DNA of 64,000 nt from Pseudohongiella sp. (GTDB taxonomy: Bacteria > Pseudomonadota > Gammaproteobacteria > Pseudomonadales > Pseudohongiellaceae), in NCBI GenBank assembly GCA_030651695.1, contig JAUSCD010000019.1, forward strand, positions 62,001 to 126,000, given 5' to 3'. The notes under the pieces are model-generated. The model was not told the origin of the DNA. It searched no databases and was given only the letters and a program-made list of their open reading frames with translations. Below are positions 4,548 through 7,548 of the stretch, piece by piece. Position 1 is the stretch's first letter. Every line of letters starts with the position of its first letter. Made by a program: the position numbers and the translations under genes.

Positions 4548-4874
4548 ATGAGTGACGTTAAAAAAGTTGGCAAGGAACGCACACAACCGGCAACGCTGAA
4601 TGAGGAGTGGAGTGATGAACGCGTAAAAGCGTTTTTTGCACTGATTCCACCGGAAGGCATACCAGCAGACTATCATCTGTTGCAAAAAGCCTACCGCGGC
4701 ATGCTGCCGGAGCAGTTCGAGAGGTTTGTGGCATTTTTTGTTGAAGGCGGCCATGACATTAATGTGCGGCTGGGCAATGGCACTACGTTTCTGGATCATG
4801 TGAATCAGCATCATAGTTCTGGGGCTTATCAGGATATTCTGAAACTGGCGGGGGCAGTGTCGGGCAAGAAGTGA
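4548..4874 (+). CDS. PA4642-like conserved small protein
   Basis: A 108-residue cytoplasmic protein of unknown function that follows gatB by 5 bp and is probably in its operon. Residues about 20-105 (EEWSDERVKAFFAL, AYRGMLPEQFERFVAFFVEG, GHDINVRLGNGTTFLDHV) match my recollection of the PA4642 family of gammaproteobacteria. No catalytic motif, signal peptide or membrane segment is visible. The first hairpin element begins 31 bp after the stop, so this gene's transcript would carry it. Confidence 0.75.
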   Translation: MSDVKKVGKERTQPATLNEEWSDERVKAFFALIPPEGIPADYHLLQKAYRGMLPEQFERFVAFFVEGGHDINVRLGNGTTFLDHVNQHHSSGAYQDILKLAGAVSGKK

Positions 4875-4904: not shown

Positions 4905-5087
4905 GCAACGGGAGTGGGTCGCTGTGCAGGACCGGCCGCATCCTCTGACGGTCCGACCGACGCTGCGCAACTCGCCTTCGCTCGCTACGCGGGCTCAGAG
5001 CTCAAACAGTGCTCGCGTTTTTTCGGTCGGACAGCCAGAGGATAAGCGCGGCCTGATTGGTCCTGCACAGCGACCCACTCCCATTGC
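4905..5087 (+). repeat. Hairpin element, copy 1 (183 bp, covarying stems)
   Basis: The left arm 4905-4933 and right arm 5059-5087 are complementary at 28 of 29 positions. An inner stem at 4942-4962 pairs with about 5023-5043 at 19 of 21. Between them is an apparently unpaired ~60-bp head. Copy 2 at 5518-5698, read on the opposite strand, aligns end to end. Shared unpaired blocks are GGCCGC after the outer arm, TGCGCAACTC, AACAGTGCTC in the head and AAGCGCG before the right arm. The outer arms differ at six positions and every change is compensated. It lies just downstream of the PA4642-like gene. I do not recognise the family. Confidence 0.9.
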
Positions 5088-5113
5088 TTGTGCGCGGCGT
5101 TGTTGCAGCGTAG

Positions 5114-5458
5114 TTGAGCGGGATATACTGGCAGTTCGATCATCTGCTTGCATGGGACTTGTTGTTGTCACTGTATGGCTACGCACCCATCGACGAGCTG
5201 AACACAGCAACTGCGTGGCTTATCTACCGGGCAGACACCATTCTTGTATCCGCCGCCATGCTGTTTCACTGGATGCCCAACATCGCCTTCAGCCACATCA
5301 TAAAACCCATGTAACCCGACGCCTCAGAACAAGCATGGCAATCAGCTGCCAACGCACACATAATAATTTTGCTGATAGCCGCAGTCGCTGCTTTATATGC
5401 AGCGCACCGCAACTTGAAGAACTACGATCTGAGGACAAACGAAGCCGCAACAAAGTGA
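5114..5458 (+). pseudogene. Interrupted small membrane-protein ORF between the two hairpin elements
   Basis: A frame opens at a TTG at 5114, runs 66 codons to a TAA at 5312-5314, and stays open in the same frame for 47 more codons to a TGA at 5456-5458. The first part contains hydrophobic LLAWDLLLSLYGY and TILVSAAMLFHW. The second contains a good membrane segment, HIIILLIAAVAALYAAH, followed by basic residues (HRNLKNYDLR). A membrane helix beyond an in-frame stop suggests a gene broken by a nonsense mutation, but the region may be fortuitous. No function is proposed. Confidence 0.35.
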
Positions 5459-5517
5459 GTCAACCGACTCAAGAGATACACCAGATGCTGCGCCCACCAA
5501 ACCAGAATGCGGAGTGA

Positions 5518-5698
5518 GCAACGGGAGCGGGTCACCGCACCGGACCACTCAGGACGCGCTTATCCTTTACCGGGGCGCCCGAAAAAGCGTGAGCACTGTT
5601 CGAATCCGGAGCGGCGTAGCCGCGACGTTGAGTTGCGCAACGCCGGGCGCCCCGGTAAAGGATGCGGCCGGTCCGGTGCGGTGACCCGCTCCCGTTGC
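5518..5698 (-). repeat. Hairpin element, copy 2 (181 bp, covarying stems)
   Basis: Arms 5518-5546 and 5670-5698 are perfectly complementary over 29 bp, and inner arms 5562-5581 and 5644-5663 over 20 bp. In the minus orientation it aligns with copy 1 at 4905-5087, with the same order of single-stranded blocks between stems. The element lies 83 bp downstream of the rhlB stop in rhlB sense orientation, so each copy sits in the 3' flank of a convergent gene in the same relative orientation. It could be an RNA structure or a mobile single-strand hairpin element. Confidence 0.9.
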
Positions 5699-5744
5699 GG
5701 CTGCACTCAATTCACACAGTAACTTTGTTGCTTTCTTTTCTTTT

Positions 5745-5773
5745 CAGCTTTGCAGCTTTGCAGCTTTGCAGCT
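5745..5773. repeat. Short tandem repeat, 8-bp unit
   Basis: The unit CAGCTTTG is repeated three times and followed by a partial copy, directly downstream of the rhlB stop on the minus strand and next to a pyrimidine-rich stretch. It may be slippage-derived. No function can be assigned. Confidence 0.75.
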
Positions 5774-5781
5774 ACAAAAGT

Positions 5782-7548
5782 TTAACGACGCGGCCGGGGT
5801 TTCCCACCACCACTACGCCCCTGCCCCGGACGCGAAGAACCGCCGCTACGAGCCGGCTTCGACTCATCCTTGAAATGCGTAGCCCGACTGAACGGCGGCG
5901 GCTCCACCAACAAAGAAGCATCCGGATAAACACAAGGCAACTTCTGCCCCAGCGTCTTCTCGATATTCGGCAACAGGAACGAATCTTCCTCACATGCAAA
6001 ACTGATAGACGTGCCCACCGAGCCCGCTCGCCCGGTACGACCAATTCTATGCACATAATCATCCGCCTCTTCCGGCAGACTGTAATTGATCACATGCGTC
6101 ACATCATCGATGTGCAAACCACGGCCCGCCACATCGGTCGCAACCAAGACCTTGATCGTGCCATCACGGAACTCGTCTAATGTCCTTACACGTTTATTCT
6201 GTGCAACTTCTCCCGACAACAAACCACAACTCACACCATGGCGGTAAAGATTGTCCGCCAGTTTACGCACCTGATCCCGGCGGTTGTTAAACACAATCAC
6301 ACGATCAGCACCTTCGGCGGCAATCAGGTTATAAAGCAGCTTATACTTGTCTTCCGTTGTAACCAGATAAACCAGTTGCTCAACATTATCTGTAGCCACA
6401 CGCTCCGGCTGAATCTCGATCATGATCGGATCCATTGCCCAACGTGAAGTCAGCTCAATAATTTCAGGTGTAAAGGTCGCACTGAACAATAACGTCTGAC
6501 GACAATCCTTATGCGGAGTACGTGACACAATTGTGCGCACCTGCGGGATAAAGCCCATGTCCAGCATACGGTCAGCTTCATCGATAACCAGCAGTTCGAC
6601 CAAACCAAGATACAAATGATCCTGCTGCAGGAAGTCGATCAAGCGGCCGGGTGTTGCCACCACGATATCGACAGGACGCTTGTCTACCTGGCGCAACTGT
6701 TTCTGATAATCCTCACCACCGACCAGTGTCACCACATGCAGATCAGTGTATTTGGTCAGGTTGGCTGCATCGCTGGCAATTTGCTGCACCAGTTCACGTG
6801 TAGGCGCCAGCACAATGGCACGTGGTTCACCAATGAAGCGTGTATCCTGCATCGGATTTTTTAACAGATCATTGATGATGGTGATCAGGAACGCTGCTGT
6901 TTTACCGGTGCCTGTCTGGGCTTTGCCTGTGACATCAAAACCGCGCAAGGTATAGCGAAGACTTTGTGCCTGAATGGGCGTGCAGTATTCATAACCCAGC
7001 TCAGCAATGCCTTTTTCAAGTGCCGGCTCCAGATTGAATGTGCTGAATGGTATCTTGGTAGGCACCACTTTGATGGCGTTTTCTACAACAGGATCTACTG
7101 CCTGTTCCGTCAGGTCTGCCAGTTCTTCTTCAGCCGCATCAGCCACTTCCCCGGCGTCCGGTTCAGCGATTTCCGGCTCAGACTCTGCAGGGGTTTCCAT
7201 CGCCGGCTCTGCTTCAGGTCCGACGGCCAATTCGACTTCAGCTACTTCAGCTACATCTGCGGCTTCAGTCGTACTCTCAGAGACAGCAACATCAACCATC
7301 TCCTCAACATCTGAGGCAAGTGCTGCGTCGGCTTCAGCCTCTGCTTCTGCTTGCTGCAACTGAATAGTGTCAGTTTCCGGAAGGCTCCCGGCATCCGCCT
7401 GAATTTCAGGCACGGCAATGACTTCGGGTTTTATCAATGTTTCTGGCTTGGGATCTTCGCCGGGCAAATCTGGAGGGGACGTGGTGTCTGATGGTTCCGG
7501 GGAAGTCTCTAACGCTGCCTGGTGATCACTTTCGTCCGTCTTTTGCAT
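5782..7548 (-). CDS. rhlB: DEAD-box ATP-dependent RNA helicase RhlB-like
   Basis: ATP-dependent RNA unwinding enzyme, probably acting in RNA decay as RhlB does. The helicase core starts near residue 165: Q-motif region CTPIQAQ, Walker A AQTGTGKT at 210-217, DEAD at 323-326, SAT at 356-358, [12 protein letters not shown] about 470-481 and HRIGRTGR at 500-507. The C-terminus is Gly/Arg/Pro-rich, as in RNA-binding tails. Residues 1-160 are an unusual Ala/Glu/Asp-rich low-complexity extension, making the protein 588 residues against about 420 for E. coli RhlB. Start ATG at 7546-7548. RhlB is the closest assignment; RhlE-type is less likely. Confidence 0.85.

Follow-up and report, generated by a model that had tools for sequence, protein, structure and literature searches.

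The two hairpins studied here are members of a chromosomal, non-coding family of REP-like palindromic repeats, which we call capped palindromes and in which a long two-part stem, variable in sequence between copies yet almost fully Watson-Crick paired, carries a conserved cap and one-sided bulges. The family is multi-copy and patchily distributed across bacteria, and its inner module is found inverted or exchanged between orthologous sites. The reading that best accounts for these observations, and to which we give about an even chance, is that the repeat is a non-autonomous REP-like element recognised as a folded single strand (the P strand, defined below), its arms being kept matched by exchange and strand switching.

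The two hairpins and neighbouring genes

The window, that is, the whole stretch of 64,000 nucleotides that was analysed (G000:C6:62001-126000), comes from a genome of 3.86 Mb in 35 contigs. A first-pass annotation made from the letters alone had described two related hairpins on opposite strands of it, and both their coordinates and their structure were correct (Table 1). Each hairpin has outer arms of 29 nt, with one mismatch in the 29 pairs of copy 1 and none in copy 2, and inner arms of about 20 nt. The minimum free energies of 201-nt stretches were −128.1 kcal/mol for copy 1 and −142.7 kcal/mol for copy 2 (folding z of −11.4 and −13.0, respectively), and none of 200 shuffles folded as well for either copy. 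Six differences between the left outer arms had been reported as matched on the right; all six are, and the right arms carry one further, unmatched difference. The blocks described as conserved and unpaired are conserved, but one of them, GGCCGC, is predicted to pair with GCGGCC in the right-hand block.

Table 1. Positions of the two capped palindromes, their parts and the adjacent genes in the window.
Feature	Position	Strand	Remarks
Copy 1, whole hairpin	4905..5087	+	Profile match 164.5 bits; model R1 match 152.2 bits
Copy 1, outer left arm	4905..4933	+	Inverted repeat I4
Copy 1, outer right arm	5059..5087	+	Inverted repeat I4, 97% complementary
Copy 1, inner left arm	4940..4960	+	Inverted repeat I6
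Copy 1, inner right arm	5023..5043	+	Inverted repeat I6, 90% complementary
Copy 1, conserved cap	4964..5014	-	Complement of TGCGCAACTC ... AACAGTGCTC, the genus form of AGGACTG ... GAGTTCCGCA
Copy 1, TGATT bulge	5054..5058	+	One-sided extrahelical bases; AATCA on the opposite strand
Copy 2, whole hairpin	5518..5698	-	Profile match 157.3 bits; model R1 match 165.7 bits
Copy 2, outer arm	5518..5546	-	Inverted repeat I3
Copy 2, second outer arm	5670..5698	-	Inverted repeat I3, 100% complementary
Copy 2, inner arm	5562..5581	-	Inverted repeat I5
Copy 2, second inner arm	5644..5663	-	Inverted repeat I5, 100% complementary
Copy 2, conserved cap	5591..5639	+	GAGCACTGT ... GAGTTGCGCA
Small ORF upstream of copy 1	4548..4874	+	108 aa, no Pfam match
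CAAX-protease-like (Rce1-like) gene remnant between the copies	5194..5443	+	Stop and deletion; tblastn E 4e-16
DEAD-box helicase gene upstream of copy 2	5782..7548	-	

Each copy had also been placed in the 3' flank of a gene in sense orientation, and this holds: copy 1 starts 30 bp after the small ORF, which was used for its gene context instead of an overlapping antisense frame, and copy 2 lies 83 bp after the helicase gene. The interval between the copies includes a decayed CAAX-protease-like gene that the annotation had missed. At the same site, the relative G005 retains copy 1 and, after it, a CAAX-protease-like frame that ends in a stop (Rce1-like, E 4e-14); the remnant in the window is shorter than this frame and contains a stop. 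Orthologues of copy 2 were found in G001 and G002. The gap between the two hairpins holds other genes in some relatives, and four 8-bp tandem units (CTTTGCAG-like) lie at 5740-5771, in the spacer that separates copy 2 from the stop codon of the helicase gene.

Copies in the genome and in the genus

An iterated profile recovered 30 places in the fetched regions of the same genome, 23 of them full length. As the annotation had suggested, a covariance model was then used: R1, a model of the core built from the 23 full-length copies. With 150 of 1737 first-look candidates scored, R1 found 23 full-length matches at 136-170 bits in the whole genome, followed by fragments and by weak reverse-strand echoes, which appear because the element is itself palindromic. 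Across 56 genomes, R1, whose filters lose some weak matches, was positive in 19, namely all 15 of the genus (this one included), 3 of the 20 other family members, and 1 of the 21 remaining genomes of the order. A lack of further copies and of covariation would have refuted the annotation; instead, the pair in the window has many counterparts in its genome and genus, with strong covariation among them.

Several copies lie at contig ends. One of them, at the end of G000:C23 (L031 13305-13481), is a hairpin between 60-nt inverted copies of one sequence, and these flanks reflect either a turn-back in the assembly or a palindrome that strand switching has lengthened. One further copy has an inverted flank piece.

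The position of the copies relative to genes was assessed with ORFs of at least 90 aa, leaving out 2 of the 30 places that are at contig ends. By eye, 24 of the 28 assessable copies lie in sense orientation 3' of a gene, roughly 10-220 bp after it, and the other 4 do not. Opposed pairs occur where convergent genes each have their own copy. This arrangement supports the chief rival of our reading, a 3'-end RNA element transcribed with the upstream gene and serving as a strong terminator, an exonuclease barrier, or a stop for convergent transcription, which we regard as possible but unlikely. The strongly kept pairing and the retention of sites within the genus also speak for it. A Rho-independent terminator has a U-run after a G+C hairpin, whereas no conserved T-run was seen by eye after the stem of the capped palindromes; neither window copy appeared in a terminator scan, which weighs little since the scan was limited to loops of 3-8. 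The hairpins could also have taken on a 3'-end RNA role secondarily.

Covariation between the arms

In the alignment of the 23 copies (A2), 96.8% of cells were paired, compared to 79.5% in shuffles, and 43 of 69 pairs showed changes on both sides. A total of 253 cells were changed on both sides versus 6 on one side only, cells counting related copies and not independent events. None of 500 shuffles reached the observed covariation values, and structures slid along the same alignment gave 25-41 both-sided cells. One covarying pair lies inside the cap (columns 73-117).

Slow RNA compensation alone would be expected, on general grounds, to leave more one-sided intermediates than were seen. Matched changes in two paralogues, taken by the annotation as the hallmark of selection on a folded molecule, are insufficient proof of RNA selection because inner stems were swapped or inverted between species, and we rejected that argument given the block exchange described below. 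The near absence of one-sided changes fits, in addition, a by-product of sequence mechanics, in which inverted repeats are made and kept perfect by template switching during replication and by recombination, with no selected function. The flipping of inner modules, the copy with mutually inverted flanks at a contig end and the copy with an inverted flank piece point the same way; this explanation leaves the conservation of the cap across phyla and the multi-copy spread unaccounted for, and we give it only a slim chance.

Strand polarity of mismatches

In the divergent copies L088-L091, the best-kept part is found on the strand opposite to that read in the annotation and consists of AGGACTGTYTGAG, a small hairpin and CGAGTTCCGCAG. 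The strand whose tip reads in this way is termed the P strand. Arms were aligned and stem mismatches scored as G.T or A.C on the P strand. The ratio of G.T to A.C was 104:27 in 77 genus copies (from 100 full-length matches, 86 with a located tip, the rest being duplicates or having an unmatched tip) and 101:45 in 128 wider copies (from 141, the rest dropped for short flanks, as duplicates or under a stricter pattern). Formal p-values for these ratios overstate the case because copies share ancestry.

With further loci added, 160 copies in all gene contexts gave 121:63. The excess was found where P is antisense to tandem genes (30:11), between convergent genes (23:10), between divergent genes (20:11), and in three one-sided classes (7:2, 6:2, and 10:2). 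With P as the sense strand of tandem genes it was weak (22:17), and 8 copies without a left gene showed the reverse (3:8). These mismatches favour the strand opposite to that read in the annotation, which counts against the 3'-end RNA element. A G.T mismatch is tolerated in single-stranded DNA as well as in RNA; the excess thus names a strand and not a molecule.

The same excess would suit a small RNA read from the P strand, or an RNA intermediate such as that of a SINE-like element copied by reverse transcriptase. The covarying pair inside the cap is consistent with this view, as are a weak promoter-like match (9/12) at 5335-5364 (+) pointing towards the P strand of copy 2 and, in copies of several taxa, a second stem-loop on the 3' side of the P strand. 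However, the scan gave two promoter-like sites against 0.5 expected, with none towards the P strand of copy 1, and in this genome P mostly runs antisense to the gene next upstream. No recurrent neighbour resembling a reverse transcriptase was seen among the ORF clusters, which were judged by eye, and, tRNAs aside, the window had no Rfam match at the gathering threshold. We consider a P-strand RNA improbable.

Exchange and inversion at single sites

For 27 of 29 of the genome's own copies, the flanks have a hairpin no more than 1.5 kb away in one or more of the fetched relatives, a loose test, since the regions of the relatives had been chosen around hairpins and neighbouring copies can share one hairpin. 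Ten sites were aligned between species. Site L033:6127 was nearly unchanged, whereas at L033:7419 the inner stem and cap differ from those in G005 with the outer arms kept, and at L031:9892 and L031:11520 the core is inverted relative to several species. Because the inner stem and cap differ at some sites with the outer arms kept, covariation between paralogues may stem from block exchange in addition to selection on pairing. At the genome's own site L040, other long hairpins are present in several relatives (12 relatives compared by eye, one stretch being N), some with a second cap type; four of these replacement hairpins were folded. At the window site, both flanks lie about 90-215 bp apart with no copy in 7 of the 15 genus genomes.

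The annotation had taken the sense orientation to favour an RNA role, and this argument is weakened by the mismatch bias towards the opposite strand, by the core flips, and by the differences in inner stem and cap between species. Its broader claim of a folded RNA or single-stranded DNA fares better: a folded single strand is supported, a sense-strand RNA only in part. The 3'-end RNA view can draw on the other long hairpins at L040, as different hairpins could replace one another there if a strong fold is all that is required; it does not account for orientation that flips between orthologues.

Occurrence of the cap in other bacteria

The pattern AGGACTGTYTGAGN{5,35}CGAGTTCCGCAG occurs in at least 120 stretches in genome_contigs, from several phyla, where by our own arithmetic about 0.03 chance matches are expected. 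Among the matches listed were Gamma- and Betaproteobacteria, Nitrospira, Lachnospiraceae, Coriobacteria, Barnesiella and Bacteroidaceae, Patescibacteria, Myxococcota, and Omnitrophica. The records among them are mainly metagenome assemblies, so some cross-phylum assignments may be binning errors; isolates include Dechloromonas hankyongensis and Niveibacterium. Folding was applied to 36 of 141 cap matches; judged by eye, the majority of those folded, but not all, are capped long stems. A cap conserved across phyla would be needless for a generic terminator, a further point against the 3'-end RNA element.

Forty-one genomes, the sources of 42 of the 120 loci and thus chosen for having the cap, were searched for its left half, CGAGGACTGTYTGAG, which was present 1-27 times per genome and more than once in 40 of them; a reversed control pattern occurred once in total in the same genomes. 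At E<=0.01, R1 detected the family in 14 of 36 loci from other taxa and in all of 9 additional loci chosen by the pattern, mostly gammaproteobacterial. The exact cap pattern matched none of 299 sampled Pseudomonadota genomes, so the exact form is uncommon and its occurrence patchy; the window's own genome also has no match to it. A single betaproteobacterial copy as query gave one partial match in 72,556 plasmid records (20% of the query, outside the cap) and no match in 50,697 phage records. In viral contigs, the full pattern was present in one stretch and the left half in 13.

In this wider set of 141 copies, 36 lie between convergent, 55 between tandem, and 12 between divergent ORFs, and 38 have no ORF on one side. 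Copies from Barnesiella, Nitrospira, and Betaproteobacteria carry the second stem-loop on the 3' side of the P strand; none was seen in the 60-nt flanks of the 23 copies of the window's genome. Most of the Barnesiella copies shown are near-identical within the element and differ in their right flanks. Further short repeats (GAGGAGAGGGGTT... and CACCTCCCCTATATTTTGC...) surround the capped palindromes in the Barnesiella loci L390-L394.

Search for a partner enzyme or a known RNA

A tyrosine transposase of the RAYT kind was considered as partner. A recognised cap (at most two substitutions per half) was found within about 1.5 kb of the Y1 transposase in none of 60 fetched loci; this pattern would miss some forms found in the genus, for which R1 served in 30 of the 60 loci, and R1 had no match in 40 sources, 30 of them Y1 loci. 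A Y1_Tnp match is absent from 16 of the 41 cap-bearing genomes, some of which have many copies, and Y1 genes are also present in many cap-free relatives. On the count of capped loci and of genomes without Y1_Tnp, this partner was rejected as a general answer. Separately, 14 of the 15 genus genomes have a Y1-transposase-like frame of 326-345 aa (119 aa in G004; G000:C17:38454-38762 in the window's genome), and this gene looks conserved rather than mobile.

When 937 ORFs from cap-pattern loci were clustered, the largest cluster (41 ORFs in 32 loci) consisted mostly of frames over the repeat itself, 35 overlapping the cap and 3 more lying within 250 bases of it. The next (12 ORFs in 11 loci) lay mostly elsewhere, with 1 overlapping the cap and 2 within 250 bases. 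The remaining clusters looked by eye like ordinary families, and no plausible recurrent neighbour protein was seen among the clustered ORFs.

At the gathering threshold, Rfam 15 reported only two tRNAs in the window; at E-values up to 1 nothing credible was added, the matches around the copies being of miRNA or snoRNA type and far below gathering. Core strings retrieved only unrelated papers, as judged by title and start of abstract, from a literature that mostly excludes subscription journals, so that a prior description is possible.

Comparison with known repeats

Integron attC sites are single-strand hairpins with one-sided extrahelical bases, a variable stem sequence, and the boxes RYYYAAC and GTTRRRY. 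Capped palindromes resemble them in the foldable hairpin, the one-sided extrahelical bases, and the variable stem. Their consensus CGCAAC / GTTGCTC does not fit these boxes by eye, and they are scattered singly or in opposed pairs beside ordinary genes, whereas attC sites stand in cassette arrays next to an integron integrase.

As described in PMC3733652, REP and BIME palindromes, with GTAG or CGTC tags, lie mostly downstream of genes, between unidirectional or convergent genes and often in opposed pairs; their stems have alternative complementary residues, and CGTC repeats have no known dedicated transposase. Capped palindromes share the position 3' of genes and between convergent genes, the opposed pairs, the alternative complementary stem residues, and, with the CGTC repeats, the lack of a known dedicated transposase (PMC3733652). 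REP-like palindromes are the nearest known kind. Capped palindromes differ in length (about 183 bp against 20-40 bp), in their long two-part stem with a conserved cap, and in having one cap pattern across phyla; by eye, their consensus ends, CGCAACGGG and CCCGTTGCTCACTCCGGATT, are neither the GTAG nor the CGTC tag, and, unlike for REP with RAYT, no copy was recognised near the tyrosine transposase in the 60 Y1 loci (PMC3733652). We did not file the family as REP because size, end tags, and transposase link differ from the account given there.

Two other kinds in the same text come close. TIRtrons and the TIR repeats of tyrosine transposases are likewise longer, partly self-complementary, and moderately abundant, but TIR repeats flank a transposase gene and no flanked transposase was found for capped palindromes (PMC3733652). 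MITEs such as ERIC, YPAL, and NEMIS share a length of 70-300 bp, the non-coding nature, the position beside genes, and strong folds; in contrast, terminal repeats of a known insertion sequence were not recognised in capped palindromes, no autonomous element was found, and their arms make up the whole element (PMC3733652).

A proposed mechanism

In the reading that we favour, the strand with AGGACTGTYTGAG...CGAGTTCCGCAG would act as a folded single strand, more probably DNA than RNA. A trans-acting recombinase or transposase would read the cap and bulges and spread the family, new copies settling at tolerated 3' intergenic sites. Exchange between copies and strand switching between arms would keep the arms matched, and between converging genes the hairpin may have a second use, as a 3'-end structure that works in both directions. 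We infer the mobility step, the enzyme, and the preference for single-stranded DNA over RNA.

This explanation rests on the copy number, the genus-wide presence, and the covariation (253 versus 6 cells, none of 500 shuffles); on the cap pattern across phyla, the multi-copy left half, and the R1 matches in other taxa; on the P-strand G.T excess, the core inversion, and the replacement of inner modules between species; and on the near-identical Barnesiella copies with differing right flanks and the copy-free window site in seven genus genomes. The mobile element that the annotation had kept as its main alternative is the better overall fit, although the mobilising enzyme was not found. Counting against it are also the lack of a plausible recurrent neighbour protein, of any clear target duplication and of a proven transposition event, and the weak or reversed polarity in two gene-context classes. 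Most genus sites are, moreover, common to several species, which suits retention for function.

More tentatively, capped palindromes may form a bacterial class spread over many phyla, whose tip and one-sided bulges would be the recognition code of a single-strand recombination system that keeps exchanging, inverting, and re-copying the free stem, with at least two cap types replacing each other at the same sites in the window's genus. Were a protein to recognise the cap, the repeats would offer an easy handle on a single-strand recombination or RNA-binding system of distant bacteria. They also illustrate clearly how block exchange and inversion can account for part of a near-perfect covariation between paralogues, which is a warning to RNA discovery pipelines in which covariation is taken to prove RNA structure.

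A second cap type

A search for the second cap type gave 10 places, with long paired arms in 8. These hairpins have a conserved tip, GGGTCTCAGAACG ... CTGATTGTTCTTCGACG, and variable long arms, and were found at L411-L413, L292, L304, L307, L308, and L329, and more weakly at L416 and L035. This second family has the TGATT bulge in common with the first and can occupy a site that holds the first family in another species.
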